Virus record (IMG/VR): IMGVR_UViG_3300004369_000096
Span: 1 to 29,539 of that record
Direction: 5' to 3' (one strand)
Source: a virus
Length of the DNA stretch: 29,539 bases
Under the pieces are notes generated by a model. That model was given only the letters and a program-made list of their open reading frames with translations, made no database searches and was not told where the DNA came from. Below are positions 378 to 18,440 of this stretch, in pieces. Positions within the stretch are counted from its first letter, which is position 1. Each line of letters starts with the position of its first letter. The position numbers and the translations under genes are program-made.

Positions 378-1235
378 ATGCCTGCACCAAAGTCAGTATC
401 ACAAATCAAATCGGCATTATTAAGACCTGCACTTACTTCTCACTTTGAAGTTGAAGTACCATTTCCTTCTGCACTTAGAAGTATCATTGGTACTGATCAA
501 GGATCTTTTAACTTATCTTGTAGTGAAGCAAGTCTTCCAGGATCTCAGTTAGCAACTCTTGAAATTAATAACGATCATACTGGTGTAACGGAAAAGCACG
601 CATATAGAAGACAGTTTGATGATAGAATTGATTTAACTTTTTATGTTGATGCTGGAAACTATACTGCGATTCGTTTCTTTGAGTCATGGATTAGTTATAT
701 AATGAATGAAGACCTTGAGGATCCAGAGAATCAAATAGCATCAAGAAGTTATAACTATAGGGCAAGATATCCAAATGAGTACATTATGGATCAAGGACTG
801 AAGGTCACAAAGTTTGAAAGAGATTATCGACAACAACTAACTTATAATTTTGTAAGAGCATTTCCTCTTTCTATCAGTTCGATGCCAGTCTCTTTTGACG
901 CATCATCTCTCTTGAAAGTCACTGTTTCTATGAGTTATATTAGATATTATATTACAGAACTCAATAGAAAAAATACTACTACACAACCCCAAGTTCAAAC
1001 ACCAGGACAGCAAGCACAATTTAATGCAAGCAACTTGACTCTTCCCGGTCTTGACGGAGCGGGAGCATTATCCCTTGATCAGGCTGCAGCTAATGAGAGA
1101 TTTTTAGGTCCTCCAAAATCAAACACGTTCTTAGGAGAACCATTAAATTCGCAGCAAACATTGAATGAGTTGTATGGAGCTGGTAGATCTGGTAAAATAA
1201 AATCTGCTGGAGATTTTATTGGACCTCTCCAATAA
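378..1235 (+). CDS. Tail-tube-like baseplate protein (gp54/gp48 family)
   Basis: This 285-residue protein has the layout of the T4 tail-tube-fold baseplate proteins gp54 (tube initiator) and gp48 (tube cap), which sit on the hub and template polymerisation of gp19. Seen in the sequence: an N-terminal TSHFEVEVPFP strand, a SEASLPGSQLATLEI segment, a YRRQFDDRIDLTFYVDAGNY strand pair followed by a helix (AIRFFESWISYI), and a strand-rich second half ending VTVSMSYIRYYI. The last ~75 residues are low in complexity (Q, N and G rich) and probably an extension. Gene context agrees: gp26, gp51 and tape-measure genes follow, as the T4 26-51-27-28-29-48-54 cluster would suggest after rearrangement. I cannot decide between gp54 and gp48. 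There is no strong Shine-Dalgarno; an AAGG lies 17 nt upstream. No other ATG near the N-terminus fits. Confidence 0.7.
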   Translation: MPAPKSVSQIKSALLRPALTSHFEVEVPFPSALRSIIGTDQGSFNLSCSEASLPGSQLATLEINNDHTGVTEKHAYRRQFDDRIDLTFYVDAGNYTAIRFFESWISYIMNEDLEDPENQIASRSYNYRARYPNEYIMDQGLKVTKFERDYRQQLTYNFVRAFPLSISSMPVSFDASSLLKVTVSMSYIRYYITELNRKNTTTQPQVQTPGQQAQFNASNLTLPGLDGAGALSLDQAAANERFLGPPKSNTFLGEPLNSQQTLNELYGAGRSGKIKSAGDFIGPLQ

Positions 1236-1273: not shown

Positions 1274-1993
1274 ATGCCTTTACCTAAGATTGCCACACCG
1301 GTATATGAACTTGAATTGCCATCCACAGGAGAAACAATTCAATATAGACCTTTCCTTGTAAAAGAAGAAAAGGTTCTTGTGATTGCTTTGGAAAGTGAAG
1401 ATGTAAAGCAAATCACAACTGCCATTAAGAATGTAATCAAGAATTGTATTAAAACAAAGGATGTTAAAGTAGAAAATCTTCCTACTTTTGACATTGAATA
1501 CTTATTTTTGAATATTCGTGGTAAGTCAGTCGGTGAGGACATTGAAGTTAATGTTACCTGCCCCGATGATGGAGAGACTCAAGTTCCAGTGACAATTAAT
1601 CTGGACGATATTAAAGTTCAGAAGAATGAAGATCATACTAATAGAATTAAATTAGATGATTCGATCATGATGGAGATGAAGTACCCATCTCTTGATCAGT
1701 TCATTAAGAACAACTTTAATTTTGAAGAAAGAAGTGCAATGGATCAATCATTTGAATTGATTGCCACTTGTATCGATAAGATTTTTACTGAGGAAGATGT
1801 CTGGGCAGCAGAGGATTGTTCAAAGAAAGAAATAGTAGAGTTTCTTGAGGGAATGAACTCTTCTCAGTTCAAAGAAATTGAGAAGTTCTTTGAGACCATG
1901 CCAAAACTTTCCCATACAATTAAAGTAAAAAATCCCAAAACTAAAAAAGAAAGTGAAGTAGTAATTGAGGGTCTGGCAGGTTTTTTCGCATAG
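1274..1993 (+). CDS. gp26: gp26 baseplate hub assembly protein (tail chaperone-like)
   Basis: A 239-residue protein of the T4 gp26 family (T4 base plate protein family; T4 gp26 is 208 residues). Family features visible are the PVYELELPSTGETIQYRPFL start, the KEEKVLVIALES helix, the FDIEYLFLNIRGKSVGE segment and a TCPDDGETQVPVTINLDDI strand region. The second half is helical (ERSAMDQSFELIATCIDKI; EFLEGMNSSQFKEIEKFFE). In T4, gp26 is needed for hub assembly; with gp51 directly downstream and tape-measure genes next, its position equals that of the G tail-assembly chaperone in lambda-like phages. Its final codons contain a T TTT TTC slippery heptamer (1981-1987), and a -1 slip there would read into the gp51 gene without a stop. 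A late promoter and a clear Shine-Dalgarno (AGGA, 1266-1269 region) precede it. Confidence 0.85.
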   Translation: MPLPKIATPVYELELPSTGETIQYRPFLVKEEKVLVIALESEDVKQITTAIKNVIKNCIKTKDVKVENLPTFDIEYLFLNIRGKSVGEDIEVNVTCPDDGETQVPVTINLDDIKVQKNEDHTNRIKLDDSIMMEMKYPSLDQFIKNNFNFEERSAMDQSFELIATCIDKIFTEEDVWAAEDCSKKEIVEFLEGMNSSQFKEIEKFFETMPKLSHTIKVKNPKTKKESEVVIEGLAGFFA

Positions 1994-2011
1994 CCATGAT
2001 CCATATGGATC
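1967..2011 (+). promoter_or_regulatory. Candidate -1 programmed ribosomal frameshift site joining gp26 to gp51
   Basis: Three elements of a classical bacterial -1 frameshift signal occur in order. A Shine-Dalgarno-like GAGGG (1967-1971) lies 9 nt upstream of the heptamer T TTT TTC (1981-1987). The heptamer is in the gp26 frame as ..T TTT TTC. Ten nt further on is a perfect 14-nt palindrome GATCCATATGGATC (1998-2011) that can fold as a 5-bp stem with an ATAT loop. A slip after TTC reads CGC ATA GCC ATG, entering the gp51 frame and giving a 301-residue fusion (238 + 3 + 60). The elements are seen directly; use of the site is inference. The stem is short, so stimulation may rest mainly on the upstream element. 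Confidence 0.6.
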
Positions 2012-2178
2012 TGGAAAATTACTATAGACTTAATTTTGCCTTGATGCAGTACCATAAATATTCATTAACTGAGATTGAAAACTTGATGCCTTGGGAACGA
2101 GACATCTATGTTGCATTATTACAACATCACCTTGAGGAAGAAGAGTTAAAACAGAAACAAAGGAATGCCATCAAGTAA
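1996..2178 (+). CDS. gp51: gp51-like baseplate hub assembly catalyst (small)
   Basis: A 60-residue, wholly helical, acidic protein (NYYRLNFALMQYHKYSLTEI, PWERDIYVALLQHHLEEEEL). I recognise it as the short gp51-like protein annotated as baseplate hub assembly catalyst in cyanomyoviruses; T4 gp51 is much longer (about 249 residues). It starts 2 nt after the gp26 stop, in the -1 frame relative to gp26, and overlaps the next gene by 14 nt. No well-spaced Shine-Dalgarno precedes either ATG (1996 or 2005), so translation must depend on coupling or on the -1 frameshift described at 1967-2011. The PWERDIY motif resembles the short alpha-helical T segment of phage tail-chaperone fusions (G-T), which recruits the tape measure. 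That parallel is inference from position and size. Confidence 0.7.
   Translation: MIHMDLENYYRLNFALMQYHKYSLTEIENLMPWERDIYVALLQHHLEEEELKQKQRNAIK
2053..2060 (+). promoter_or_regulatory. Possible internal late promoter (CATAAATA) inside gp51
   Basis: CATAAATA carries the same ATAAATA core as the other late promoters. It lies within the gp51 coding sequence, 104 nt upstream of the first tape-measure gene. The distance is longer than at the other sites and the match could be chance. Confidence 0.3.
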
Positions 2179-4330
2179 GTTCGGTTCTAAGTTTTTCGGT
2201 GAAGAAAGATATCAGCAGTATGTCGATGAACTTACTGCTGAAGGAACCCTTGGTGGCGAGCAATTATCTCCAGAAGAAAGAAAAGAAGGATTCAAGAAGA
2301 GAAATGATAAGATAGGATTTGAAGAATTTGTAAATAAAGTTCTTGAGAAAAAATCTGCTGCTACCACCATGGCAGCAAGCAAGGCATCACTTCCTGGTGG
2401 TGTTGGTGGTGGAGGAGGAGGTGCTCTTGTAAAAGCACCAAAAGGTGGATTGGTAAAAGCAGATATAAGTAAAATAACTCCACAAGAGAGTAGCAATATA
2501 CTTGAAGATATATTGAAAATTGTCACATCAATTCGTGACACTCTGATTGAAAAAAATAAATTTGATGCAGATCAATCAAAGAAAGATAAACAATCTGCAG
2601 AGAGAGAAAGAAGAGCAGGGAAAGAAAAGAAATTAGAGTCAGGTGCTTTCAAAGGTCTTAAGAAAGCAACTGAGAAAGTTCTTGCTCCAGTCAAATCTTT
2701 ATTTGAAAAAGTATTTGATTTTATAAAAACCGTTATTCTTGGTAGAATTGTATATAAAATTGTTGAATGGATGGGCAATCCAGACAACGCAGGGAAGATT
2801 GAAAGTATAATAAGATTCTTCTCTGATTGGTGGCCTGTTATTGCAGGTGCATACTTATTATTTGGAACAAAGTTTGGTGCCCTGATTAGAACCATTGGTG
2901 GTTGGGCAATACAAATAGCAAGATTTGCTATACCAAAACTTCTGAGATTTGTCACAAGAAATCCAAAAACTGCTGCTGTTCTTGCTGGTGCTGGATATCT
3001 TGGTGCAAGAATATTGACTGGTACTGAAGTTGGTGGAGATGAAGAAGGAAGTTCTGAAAAAGAGACATCACAATTCCAAGCAGATCAAACCGCTGCAAAA
3101 CAAACTGAGGGAGCAACACCCAAAACTCCAGAAGAAAAACCAAAAGAAATGTCTGCTGGTGGTCGGGTTCCAGGATCAGGTAATAGAGACACTGTTCCTG
3201 CGATGCTCACTCCTGGAGAGTTTGTGATGAGTAAAGGTGCTGTTGCAAAGTTTGGCACAAGCACTTTAGCTTCAATGAATGCAATGGGTGGTGGAACAAA
3301 CATTCCATCTTTCTCTGGTGGAGGATTGTTAGGATTCCAAGGTGGAGGATCAGTTCCTGGTGGTGATGAAGATAAAACAAAAGATCAAAGAGGTCCAATG
3401 AGTTGGTTAGGTAATCTTTTTGGTGGAGGATCGAAACCAAAAGATCAAAAACAAGCAACTAAAACCAAAAGTAGTGGTGGTGGATTAACTGATATTCAGA
3501 AGAAAGCATTGGGAGTTCTTGCTAAGTATGAATCTGGTGCGGCAGGATATAATGCTGTTAATCAAATAGGAACCGCTGGTGGTAGAGGTGTTAAAGGTTT
3601 CTCTGGAGACATTAGAAAGATGTCTCAACATAAAGGAAGATCTTTGACAGATTTTACGATCGCTGAAATTAAAAGACTTCAACATGATGATAGATCTATG
3701 TCGGATAGTCAGTGGATTTCTGCTGGTAAATTACATGCGGTTGGAAGATATCAGTTTATTGGAAACACTCTTCCTGGTGTAGCAAAGAGAGCAGGAATAC
3801 CAGACAACGCTAAGTTTAGTGAGGGTGTGCAAGATCTGATGGCACTTCAGTTAATGAAGGAACGTGGAATATCTCCATGGGTTGGACCAAGTGATAAGGC
3901 AACTCAGCCTGAGAGGGCAATCGTTGAGCAAGCAAGAAAACAACCAATTAAGTTTGATCCATCGATGCCAACAGGATCTTCTATAGCGTATGAACCAGGT
4001 GCCGGTGGTGATATTAGTAGTAGTGGAGGAGGTGGTGACATAAGTGGTTCAAGTGGGGGATCTACGCCACCTCCATTTGATCCTGTTGCAGCAGCAAAAG
4101 CAACAAAGACATTTGATTACATGTCTGTGAGAAAATCATTGGGTGTTAAGACAGCATCTATCTCCAAATCGTCAAGACCATCATCTTCAACCTCAGCATA
4201 TAATCAAACACAAAATACTCAACAGGGACAACAAAAAACAGAACAAAAACAAACCCCTGGTATTCCATCATTTGACGCAGCAGCAATGTCTTCTCCAAAG
4301 AAGATAAAAGTTCTGGGAATAACGGTGTAA
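2165..4330 (+). CDS. Tape-measure-like protein 1 (gp29-like) with lambda-R-type transglycosylase domain
   Basis: A 721-residue protein. The first ~210 residues are charged and helical, with a glycine-rich linker at ~75-90. Residues ~180-280 hold hydrophobic helices (FIKTVILGRIVYKIVEW; PVIAGAYLLFG). At ~330-370 is the motif AGGRVPGSGNRDTVPAML...GEFVMSKGAV, typical of phage tape-measure proteins. Residues ~447-590 resemble the lambda endolysin R transglycosylase (GH104-like): an LAKYESG start with E456 at the position of the catalytic Glu, HAVGRYQFIG (G527-F531), and a DLMALQLMKERG helix matching the lambda R ALQQIKERG region. The C-terminal ~130 residues are Ser, Gly and Gln rich. It overlaps gp51 by 14 nt and is followed after 3 nt by a paralogue. 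The likely role is to set tail length and locally cut peptidoglycan on ejection. T4 gp29 is the functional counterpart but has no such domain. Confidence 0.75.
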   Translation: MPSSKFGSKFFGEERYQQYVDELTAEGTLGGEQLSPEERKEGFKKRNDKIGFEEFVNKVLEKKSAATTMAASKASLPGGVGGGGGGALVKAPKGGLVKADISKITPQESSNILEDILKIVTSIRDTLIEKNKFDADQSKKDKQSAERERRAGKEKKLESGAFKGLKKATEKVLAPVKSLFEKVFDFIKTVILGRIVYKIVEWMGNPDNAGKIESIIRFFSDWWPVIAGAYLLFGTKFGALIRTIGGWAIQIARFAIPKLLRFVTRNPKTAAVLAGAGYLGARILTGTEVGGDEEGSSEKETSQFQADQTAAKQTEGATPKTPEEKPKEMSAGGRVPGSGNRDTVPAMLTPGEFVMSKGAVAKFGTSTLASMNAMGGGTNIPSFSGGGLLGFQGGGSVPGGDEDKTKDQRGPMSWLGNLFGGGSKPKDQKQATKTKSSGGGLTDIQKKALGVLAKYESGAAGYNAVNQIGTAGGRGVKGFSGDIRKMSQHKGRSLTDFTIAEIKRLQHDDRSMSDSQWISAGKLHAVGRYQFIGNTLPGVAKRAGIPDNAKFSEGVQDLMALQLMKERGISPWVGPSDKATQPERAIVEQARKQPIKFDPSMPTGSSIAYEPGAGGDISSSGGGGDISGSSGGSTPPPFDPVAAAKATKTFDYMSVRKSLGVKTASISKSSRPSSSTSAYNQTQNTQQGQQKTEQKQTPGIPSFDAAAMSSPKKIKVLGITV

Positions 4331-4333
4331 GAT

Positions 4334-6937
4334 ATGGCAATTACTGCTCAGAAGTTACTACCACAAAGTAAGGGAGGATCAATAACTCCTATAAAGAGAG
4401 GTGCCCTTACAACGATCAAACCAATAGGAGTAAAGAAATCTGTTGGTGGTAAAGAAAGTAGTGAGAAGAGAAATGTACTTTTAGTTATAAAGGAGAGAAC
4501 TATTGAGATAGAAACTCTTCTCAAAGGATCTCTTGCCCTTGATAAAATTAGAGCAGACCAAGCAAGAAAGAAGATAGAAACAAAGACACGCTCAGAAAAA
4601 GAAGATGAATTAGAAAAAGACTCAGGTGATAAGAAAGAAAAACCAAAAGGATTAAAACTTCCCAAAGTAAGTTTCTTTGATAAGATAAAGAACTTCATTA
4701 AGAATGTTATTCTTGGATTTATTTTTTATCGATTAGTTGACTTTCTTCCACAACTCACAAAGTTCATATCTTTTATAGGCCCAGTTACAGATTTTGTTTT
4801 AAATTTGGGAGGAAAACTTCTTGATGGTCTTGTCACTTTTGTAGACTGGGGATATAAAGTTTATGATTCTGCAAGAGGATTTATAGGCGATAAACTTGGT
4901 GACGAGGCACAGAAAAACTTTGATAGTTTGATGACCAATGTCAACACGATGTTGAACTTGGCACTTATTGCGGCGATGGGTGCTATAGCACTTCGTCCTA
5001 AACCACCTAAAGGTGAAAAACCAGGAGGAGTAAAACCAAGAAGAGGTCAAATCGTTGATCCAGTAACGGGTAAGGTTAGAAAGAAAACTAAATTTGAACT
5101 GGAACTTCAGAAAAAATATAAACTAAATGATGATCAGATCAATGCCTTCCGTAAGGCAAAACAAGGTGGCGCAAATACGCAACAAGCATTAGCACAGGCA
5201 AAAAAAGTTAAACCCAAAAAACCAACTAAACCACAAGGATTTTTTGGTAAGTTATTTGAAGGTGCAAAAGATTTAGCAAAGGGAGTTGGTTCTGGACTCA
5301 ACAAACTTTCTGGTGGAAATCTTGGTAAACTTGGCAACTTTTTACAAGATCAATATAAGAATGCATCTGCTGCTGTAAGGAAACAGTATGATAAAGTTGT
5401 AGCGGTTGGTGATGTTATTAAGAATAAATTTGGTGAGGGCGTTAACAAGTTAAAGAATGCTGCTGGCAATCTTGCAGAAGCAGCAAAGAAACAAATTGTT
5501 CAAAAAATTATTGAACCACTTAAACCAATTTTTGAACCAATACTTAGTAAATTGAAATCTATTGGTGATAGAATAATGAAACAGTTATCGAAGATACCAG
5601 GATTCGATAACGTCATGAAAGTCCTTCAGAAAAATGGCGTTAAAGGCCTTGATGATGCAAAAGGATTATTGAAAAAAGTTGGTCCAAAAGCAATACCTAT
5701 TCTTGGTGGTATTGTTAATCTTTTGTTTGCGTATGATAGACTTGCCCAAGGTGATTTAATTGGTGGATTACTGGAAGCAACTTCTGGTGTCTTAGATTTA
5801 TCTGGTGCATTTGGATTTGTTCCTGGCCCTGGAATCTCAATGGGTATCGATGCATACTTATTTGCCAGAGACTTCATTCCACAAATTCAAGAAGGAGAAA
5901 ATGCAGCAGTAAATGCACTTGGACTTGGAGGAATAAAGGGACAAGTAGAAGGTCTTGCCAAGAAACTCCCAGACTTATCTACTATCGTGAAGATGATTAC
6001 TGGAAAAGGTGATCCAACTCAACCAATGCTGAGTCTTCCAACAGGATCAGATGAACAAGGCACAAGACAGAGTGCTGGTGCAGATCCTATGGGTAGTGGT
6101 GTAACCGCTGGTGGAGCAACTGGAAAAGGATTAAGAACTGGTCCAAGCAGTAGAATTGGTGGTAGTGCAGAATATCATGTTGATACTAAGTTTCATAAGA
6201 GTCTTGGAATTGCTGGAATTGTATCATCTATGGATAAACTATCAAAGGAATATGCAAACAGAGGTCGAGTGATTGAGATGTCTGGACATATGGTTGCGGG
6301 TCAGAAGTATAATCATGAAGATAAGTATATGAAGAAGAGAAATCTGATGCAAGGTGCTATTGATTCTCATAGTCATTCATCATTTATGAGAGCAGAAGGA
6401 TTCTTACCATTCGATTATTACATTCCAAAAGCAAATGACCCCCAAGGAAGATTTGGTAAGTCTGCTGAGGGTGCTGAAATTCTTGTTCCAGATTTTGGTG
6501 GTAAGATAAATGTTGGTAAGTTGTATGGTGGATATGGAAAGAGTGCTGATATCTATGATGCATCTAATAAGTGGGTGGCAATGACTGGTCATGGTGACAT
6601 TGCATATATGCTTGGTGGATTTACCAAAGCAATGGCTCACAGAGCAGTTCTTGGTGAGAAAGGTAGAGAGTTTGTTATTGATGCTGATTCTACAGCAGCA
6701 ATTGAAAGCACTTTCCCAGGGTTCCTCAATGCTATTAACAAAGCAGATGGAAAACAAGCAATAGAAATATTAAGATCATATGCAGAATATGAAATGCCAG
6801 AGGTAATTCCTGTCCCAGTCGTTCAGCAGGTTCCTGTCGGCGGAGGATCATACGACACTGCTCAAAAATCTTCGATGATTTCTGGTGGAAGATCAAAGAG
6901 AAATGATCCATTCCAAGAGATTCTGTACATGCGTTAA
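4334..6937 (+). CDS. Tape-measure-like protein 2 with possible M23-like C-terminal region
   Basis: An 867-residue paralogue of the preceding protein. It shares the charged N-terminus and the hydrophobic segment FFDKIKNFIKNVILGFIFYR (compare LFEKVFDFIKTVILGRIVYK in the first copy). The middle is Lys-rich and helical (~230-460). A hydrophobic helical block at ~455-520 (GGIVNLLFAYDRLAQGDLIGG, shortened here) may be membrane active. Residues ~610-755 hold HSHSS, EGFLPFDYYIPKA, AEGAEILVPDFGGKI, GGYGKSADIYDASN and TGHGDIAY. The order resembles an M23 (LAS) metallopeptidase core, but the metal ligands are not canonical. The tail has AHRAVLGEKGREFVIDADS, a tape-measure-type motif. Starts 3 nt after the previous stop. 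Either this or the first copy could be the true ruler; the other may be a minor tail-lumen protein. Confidence 0.7.
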   Translation: MAITAQKLLPQSKGGSITPIKRGALTTIKPIGVKKSVGGKESSEKRNVLLVIKERTIEIETLLKGSLALDKIRADQARKKIETKTRSEKEDELEKDSGDKKEKPKGLKLPKVSFFDKIKNFIKNVILGFIFYRLVDFLPQLTKFISFIGPVTDFVLNLGGKLLDGLVTFVDWGYKVYDSARGFIGDKLGDEAQKNFDSLMTNVNTMLNLALIAAMGAIALRPKPPKGEKPGGVKPRRGQIVDPVTGKVRKKTKFELELQKKYKLNDDQINAFRKAKQGGANTQQALAQAKKVKPKKPTKPQGFFGKLFEGAKDLAKGVGSGLNKLSGGNLGKLGNFLQDQYKNASAAVRKQYDKVVAVGDVIKNKFGEGVNKLKNAAGNLAEAAKKQIVQKIIEPLKPIFEPILSKLKSIGDRIMKQLSKIPGFDNVMKVLQKNGVKGLDDAKGLLKKVGPKAIPILGGIVNLLFAYDRLAQGDLIGGLLEATSGVLDLSGAFGFVPGPGISMGIDAYLFARDFIPQIQEGENAAVNALGLGGIKGQVEGLAKKLPDLSTIVKMITGKGDPTQPMLSLPTGSDEQGTRQSAGADPMGSGVTAGGATGKGLRTGPSSRIGGSAEYHVDTKFHKSLGIAGIVSSMDKLSKEYANRGRVIEMSGHMVAGQKYNHEDKYMKKRNLMQGAIDSHSHSSFMRAEGFLPFDYYIPKANDPQGRFGKSAEGAEILVPDFGGKINVGKLYGGYGKSADIYDASNKWVAMTGHGDIAYMLGGFTKAMAHRAVLGEKGREFVIDADSTAAIESTFPGFLNAINKADGKQAIEILRSYAEYEMPEVIPVPVVQQVPVGGGSYDTAQKSSMISGGRSKRNDPFQEILYMR

Positions 6938-17148: not shown

Positions 17149-17150
17149 AT

Positions 17151-17234
17151 GGGACGGTGGCGGAAGTGGTAGACGCACCAGACTTAAAATCTGTTGGGAG
17201 TATTCCCGTGGGGGTTCAAGTCCCCCTCGTCCTA
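17151..17234 (+). tRNA. tRNA-Leu (anticodon UAA)
   Basis: An 84-nt class II tRNA. The acceptor stem GGGACGG pairs with TCGTCCT (two G-U), the D-arm reads GCGGAAGTGGTAGACGC, the anticodon loop CTTAAAA gives UAA (17185-17187), a long variable arm (GGGAGTATTCCC) follows, and the T-arm is GGGGG-TTCAAGT-CCCCC. CCA is not encoded. It reads UUA codons. Confidence 0.93.
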
Positions 17235-17237
17235 TTG

Positions 17238-17544: not shown

Positions 17545-17554
17545 CATAAGACAA

Positions 17555-17626
17555 GCCACCGTAGCATAACGGTGATGCAGTGCTCTTGTAAAGCAAAGAT
17601 TGCTGGTTCAAATCCAGTCGGTGGCT
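17555..17626 (+). tRNA. tRNA-Thr (anticodon UGU)
   Basis: A 72-nt tRNA with a perfect acceptor stem GCCACCG/CGGTGGC, D-arm GCATAACGGTGATGC, anticodon loop CTTGTAA giving UGU (17587-17589), and T-arm GCTGG-TTCAAAT-CCAGT. CCA is not encoded. It reads ACA codons. Antisense reading frames across it are artefacts. Confidence 0.93.
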
Positions 17627-17641
17627 TATAAAGGAGAAAAA

Positions 17642-17825: not shown

Positions 17826-18440
17826 GTGAAAGATGATTTTTACATAGATAGAGTTAGTAAAGATGATATTAAAGATTTACTTTATACCCATCATTACTTA
17901 AAAGACGAATCTAAAGATTTTAAATCAGGGTATAATTATGGACTTTTCAAACGTACAGAGTGGGAATGTCCTCTTAGGATTGGCAAGTGCCTTGCTGCTT
18001 GCATTTTTACTGGCCTCCCTGTTCCAGAGATTGCCAGAGGAGCATTCGGGTTAGAAAGAAATCAACAAGAAGGTCTATTTGAACTTTCAAGACTTTGTGT
18101 TGATCCAGAAATTCAGAAAGAAGAATATAACATAACGTCTTGGTTCGTAAGTCGTTGTATCAAGAGGTTCCGTAAAGATGCGGATGTTCGTGCTATTCTT
18201 AGTTATGCTGACTCTGCTCACCATAGTGGAATTATATACCGTGCTTGTAATTTCAAGTATTACGGGTTGACGGATTCTAAAAAGGATTTTTACTATTCTG
18301 ATGGCACCAAACATTCACGGGGAAGTGTCAAAGGTGTTGATGGTGAATGGCGCGATAGAAGTAGAAAATATAGATATTTGATGGTCTTTGATAAGTCACT
18401 AAAGGTCTTGTGGAATGAGGAAAAGTATGGTAATATATAA
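17826..18440 (+). CDS. Mom-like GNAT-family DNA modification protein
   Basis: A 204-residue protein resembling phage Mu Mom, a GNAT-fold enzyme that converts adenine in DNA to a carbamoylmethyl form and so protects against restriction. Features in order: THHYLKDESKDF, the early H-H motif; LAACIFTGLPVPEIARGAFG, the GNAT strand and loop; LFELSRLCVDPE, the core strand pair; YNITSWFVSRCIKRFRK, the helix after the cofactor site; ILSYADSAHHSGIIYRACNF, matching the Mom SYAD-GH-GTIYxAxN segment; and a Lys/Arg-rich C-terminus. It starts with GTG at 17826, with no clear Shine-Dalgarno. The nearest signal downstream is a strong terminator. Cofactor and chemistry cannot be read from sequence. It is the last gene of the islet. 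Confidence 0.7.
   Translation: MKDDFYIDRVSKDDIKDLLYTHHYLKDESKDFKSGYNYGLFKRTEWECPLRIGKCLAACIFTGLPVPEIARGAFGLERNQQEGLFELSRLCVDPEIQKEEYNITSWFVSRCIKRFRKDADVRAILSYADSAHHSGIIYRACNFKYYGLTDSKKDFYYSDGTKHSRGSVKGVDGEWRDRSRKYRYLMVFDKSLKVLWNEEKYGNI

Follow-up and report, generated by a model that had tools for sequence, protein, structure and literature searches.

A conserved candidate -1 frameshift cassette at the gp26/gp51 junction of a T4-type marine phage

The stretch of viral DNA analysed here (29,539 nucleotides, hereafter the window) belongs to a marine phage of the T4 type, with Synechococcus phage S-SM2 as a close cultured relative (gp26 91% identical). Its gene for the short tail assembly chaperone gp26 is followed by a small open reading frame (ORF) that can be annotated as gp51, and the locus raises the question of whether these are two genes or one gene read in two ways. 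Tail chaperones made by frameshifting are already known from lambda and from T4-like phages; in several groups of the latter frameshifting is reportedly conserved, and T4 is said to use its genes 26 and 51. The first-pass annotation of the window had proposed that a programmed -1 frameshift fuses gp26 to gp51, as the T4-type equivalent of lambda G and GT. Our analysis makes it very probable that gp26 and gp51 constitute a single tail assembly chaperone gene with two readings by -1 slippage, and the equivalence with G and GT is supported by conservation, by the natural fusion that T4 gp51 represents and by the chaperone-like fold predicted for gp26.

The junction and its surroundings

The gp26 ORF encodes 239 residues and closes with T TTT TTC, GCA and TAG. 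The slippery heptamer does lie in the gp26 frame, as first described, but its placement two codons before the stop does not hold, as one sense codon (GCA) intervenes. After a -1 slip the reading would continue as CGC ATA GCC ATG and run stop-free into the ORF at 1996-2178, giving a predicted fusion of 238 + 63 = 301 residues; both the open frame and the length of the fusion claimed earlier are borne out by direct reading. In-frame T TTT TTN is found three times in the 8467 codons of all ORFs of the window. The two flanking elements that had been pointed out were also found, namely GAGGG, 9 nt upstream, and a 14-nt palindrome, GATCCATATGGATC, that begins 10 nt past the heptamer. The full predicted hairpin exceeds this palindrome, with 3 + 5 base pairs and a one-base bulge, and leaves a spacer of 6 nt after the heptamer. 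Over the 38 nt folded, the energy is -10.1 kcal/mol with a z of -2.2, and an equally good fold arises in 8 of 200 shuffled sequences. Taken from one sequence, such a palindrome would have been weak evidence by itself; covariation across relatives adds support.

Table 1. Features of the gp26/gp51 locus in the window.
Feature	Position	Strand	Evidence
Tail-tube-family protein, upstream of gp26	378..1235	+	phrog_45 tail tube 8e-38; PF23849 5e-17
gp26, short tail assembly chaperone (G / TAC-N equivalent), PF12322	1274..1993	+	PF12322 2e-78; phrog_150 5e-83; AlphaFold2 pLDDT 88
Shine-Dalgarno-like candidate stimulator GAGGG	1967..1971	+	9 nt 5' of slippery site; correlated codons in 78 relatives
Slippery heptamer T TTT TTC	1981..1987	+	invariant in 80 distinct loci; T TTT TTN in 146/160 junctions
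-1 extension, gp51 / TAC-C domain, 63 residues post-slip	1987..2178	+	phrog_634 5e-28; fusion compared with T4 gp51
gp26 (0-frame) stop TAG	1991..1993	+	direct reading
Predicted downstream hairpin, core palindrome 1998-2011	1994..2014	+	fold -10.1 kcal/mol; covariation at 5/5 core pairs
ORF annotatable as separate gp51 from ATG 1996	1996..2178	+	ORF list; ATG not conserved
Next gene, tape-measure candidate with lysozyme-like part	2165..4330	+	phrog_35029 1e-171; weak tape-measure family matches

By family matches, a tail tube gene precedes the chaperone pair, as it does for frameshift-made tail assembly chaperones. The ORF that directly follows gp51, with a start overlapping the end of gp51, has only weak matches to tape-measure families, and the picture is similar in distant relatives. 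This ORF and the one after it (4334-6937) are both large, each shows weak matches to tape-measure and endolysin-like families, and either of them might be the tape measure. Elsewhere in the window, genes for tRNA-Leu (TAA, 17150-17235) and tRNA-Thr (TGT, 17554-17627) adjoin an ORF (17826-18437) with matches to Mom-like and HNH endonuclease families.

Conservation in close and distant relatives

Conservation of the heptamer and of its -1 relation to gp51, proposed as a check by the first-pass annotation, was examined in close and very distant relatives. Both are kept, and the attempt to refute the frameshift at the level of the sequence failed; conservation in relatives thereby confirms that the cassette observed in the window is real. 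The close set comprises 78 to 80 distinct relatives, the count of 80 loci including the window, whose gp26 proteins are 70-91% identical. At this level (at least 70% gp26 identity), the heptamer codons are TTT and TTC in 80/80 distinct loci, and the codon in front of them alternates between AGT and TCT, ending in T in all 80. At conserved degenerate positions of the same gene, the top codon is retained in 69% of sequences on average.

The Glu-Gly pair upstream of the heptamer is encoded by GAG GGN in 60 and by GAA GGG in 18 of the 78 relatives, and by GAA GGH in none (Fisher 1.6e-13, uncorrected for relatedness), so that correlated codon choice always keeps an AGGG upstream, with 8 or 9 nt between it and the heptamer. 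At the hairpin, two-sided changes affect all five core pairs and amount to 43 cells, compared with 11.4 in shuffled data, in a count likewise uncorrected for relatedness; none of 500 shuffles reaches 43, and the signal is lost when the pairing partners are slid. All five core pairs are complete in 47 of the 78 close relatives, and the hairpin is therefore likely to be an aid to slippage rather than an essential element.

Among very different phages of the T4 superfamily, the -1 frame stays open for at least 49 codons beyond the gp26 stop in all 160 distinct junctions compared, and the +1 frame reaches 45 codons in one of them. Where the 3' end of gp26 has a T TTT TTN heptamer in register, the last codon of the heptamer is mostly TTC, with TTT and TTA also found and TTG once. 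The same cassette is present in the Desulfovibrio 7757, Cronobacter S13, Aeh1, Stenotrophomonas Ps15, Delftia phiW-14, Vibrio K575, Agrobacterium OLIVR6, Sinorhizobium phiM12, Pelagibacter Mosig and Methylophilales Melnitz phages. In both Cronobacter S13 and Aeromonas Aeh1, an unannotated gp51 follows gp26 in the -1 frame with no ATG nearby. A query of viral contigs with the gp26 of Vibrio K575 returned no matches.

The junctions without the heptamer belong to the Ackermannviridae (13 of the 160) and to Vibrio phage K469. After their gp26 homologue, the Ackermannviridae carry an unannotated gp51-like -1 extension, about 50 residues long, whose start has no ATG close by. Their junction, [AG]ATTTTC AT[TC] TAA, lacks an X XXY YYZ heptamer, and slippage of a single tRNA on T TTC could occur there. 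The K469 junction, CTTTTTGCGTAATG (locus positions ~3207-3226), lacks a canonical heptamer, and an ATG in the -1 frame overlaps its stop; this phage may use stop-start coupling or, alternatively, a single-tRNA slip. In Pelagibacter phage Mosig (locus ~2486-2519), the heptamer lies 24 nt upstream of the 0-frame stop, with a longer overlap of the frames, and the annotated gp51 begins at an internal ATG and is truncated.

Both parts of the window fusion are homologous to the T4 gp26/gp51 family (PF12322, phrog_150 and phrog_634). T4 gp26 consists of PF12322 only, and T4 gp51 of PF12322 followed by the gp51 family part within one ORF, the two genes being divergently transcribed. A profile of the predicted fusions aligns with T4-type gp51 over residues 13-286 (E 4e-21), gap-free at the junction. 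Judged by its sequence, T4 gp51 is a natural, in-frame fused long form.

As for structure, the best three VIA-align matches of the AlphaFold2 model of gp26 are 3fgx (Z 8.1), 2ob9 (Z 7.9) and 3klu (Z 7.3), each extending over 84-86 residues within gp26 residues 1-96 and scoring above unrelated entries. All three are phage tail assembly chaperones (PMC9603447). These best matches suggest a known chaperone fold for the N-terminal domain, with the reservation that the Z scores are modest and that a common fold is no proof of function. Unlike the gp26 model, the model of T4 gp51 gave no chaperone match in a Foldseek search against the PDB or in a second look with VIA, and a profile search of solved-structure sequences returned nothing useful.

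Alternatives to the frameshift

The alternative that survives best is a variant of frameshifting rather than its opposite: the fusion would be the essential long chaperone, and some free gp51 would be made in addition from ATG 1996 where that codon is present. An ATG is kept at this position in 48 of the 78 close relatives. Nevertheless, its Shine-Dalgarno context is weak, the ATG column overlaps both the hairpin and coding constraint, and the ATG is missing in many distant relatives, which makes this variant rather unlikely, though compatible with our main interpretation.

It could also be that gp51 is an ordinary independent gene whose translation is coupled to the gp26 stop and begins at ATG 1996 or further on at another ATG, with the T tract being incidental. 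The ATG lies only 2 nt past the stop in the window, its codon is retained in the close relatives just mentioned, and gp51 is entered as a gene of its own in public records. However, the small gene lacks a Shine-Dalgarno sequence at the right spacing, as had been noted at the outset, the heptamer codons are frozen, T4 gp51 is fused, and the ATG is absent from many relatives. In 52 of 153 distinct loci no ATG occurs within the first 10 codons of the -1 frame. Conservation of gp51 starts immediately past the heptamer, as in FF-RIALSHDSLENYY, that is, within the overlap of the frames and upstream of any ATG there; in those 52 loci a separate gp51 gene starting at an ATG is hardly conceivable, as none precedes its conserved sequence. 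We therefore reject an independent gp51 as very improbable, given that its start codons are not conserved.

Preservation of the heptamer merely because the protein requires Phe-Phe and codon usage is rich in T, an idea to which the conserved GFF, SFF or DFF and the commoner use of TTT might lend some credit, is scarcely believable and was rejected on codon evidence, since the second codon is TTC in every close locus against a 29% share of TTC among Phe codons, other conserved Phe positions mostly have mixed codons, Ser before the heptamer is encoded by AGT or TCT only, and the openness of the -1 frame and the covariation of the Shine-Dalgarno-like element and hairpin are left unexplained.

Proposed mechanism and comparison with known systems

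If gp26 and gp51 are two readings of one gene, the majority of ribosomes would terminate at TAG 1991 and release the 239-residue gp26, the short form. A minority would slip one base back on T TTT TTC, bypass the stop and make the 301-residue gp26-gp51 long form, the slip being favoured by the Shine-Dalgarno-like AGGG behind the ribosome and the hairpin ahead of it. On the model of lambda G/GT, the tape-measure protein would be coated by the short form and linked to the tail tube by the long form. The sequences themselves show the heptamer, the frame relation, the conserved stimulators, the fused form in T4 and a chaperone-like fold, whereas the occurrence of slippage, its rate and this division of labour are inferred. 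Chaperones of this type bind tape measure and tail tube and are absent from the virion; T4 gp51 is needed for assembly and does not occur in the particle (PMC3004832).

An evolutionary scenario that we hold tentatively, as somewhat less likely than not, would make a composite, dnaX-like cassette (AGGG and T TTT TTN, with a hairpin that covaries in the cyanophage branch) the ancestral route of the T4 superfamily to a long chaperone. The T4 group would then have lost the cassette by gene duplication and in-frame fusion of one copy, and the Ackermannviridae would keep the -1 extension through a single-tRNA slip on TTTTC, without the heptamer.

Frameshifting at this junction would also account for observations on public genomes. 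Cyanophage gp51 was described as lacking ~200 N-terminal residues, and gp51 as missing only in Aeh1 (Sullivan et al. 2010, PMC3037559). Presumably, the cyanophage protein looked truncated because the lacking N-terminal part is gp26, supplied by the frameshift, and gp51 seemed absent from Aeh1 because its extension lies in the -1 frame and has no start codon close by. The same arrangement would explain why the gene is mis-started or omitted in some public genomes. The cassettes collected here provide a ready test set for how a Shine-Dalgarno-like element and a hairpin tune frameshifting in abundant marine viruses.

As to earlier work, tail assembly chaperones of T4-like phages were identified by Vladimirov, Gautam and Davidson (Virology 2022, 566:9-15), according to the citing papers PMC10885494 and PMC12846349; as cited there, some T4-like phages have separate short and long chaperone genes (PMC10885494), and poly-T slippery sequences are known in their TAC-N genes (PMC12846349). 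The gene family is the same as ours (T4 26 and 51). The remark of the first-pass annotation that T4 is not described as frameshifting is right for T4 itself, which does without, but the literature already covers T4-like chaperones. A literature search that covered the 2022 study through papers citing it found no direct description of the cyanophage gp26/gp51 frameshift, of the covarying Shine-Dalgarno-like element and hairpin or of the heptamer-less variant of the Ackermannviridae.

Like the T4 gp26/gp51 pair, the window would encode a short form with PF12322 only and a long form with PF12322 plus the gp51 part; in T4, unlike the window, the pair consists of two divergently transcribed genes and no frameshift is needed. 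Lambda G/GT comprises a short form and a long form made by -1 frameshifting on G GGA AAG. The predicted products of the window follow the same scheme, from a gene located between a tail-tube-family gene and a candidate tape-measure gene, whereas the slippery site is T TTT TTC, flanked by a Shine-Dalgarno-like element and a hairpin. At the protein level, the likeness is one of fold and concerns the HK97 chaperone only. In its architecture, the cassette resembles that of Escherichia coli dnaX, with a Shine-Dalgarno-like element upstream, a heptamer and a downstream hairpin at similar spacings. In dnaX, slippage on A AAA AAG yields a truncated product, whereas in the window the heptamer is T TTT TTC and the frameshift would extend the product.
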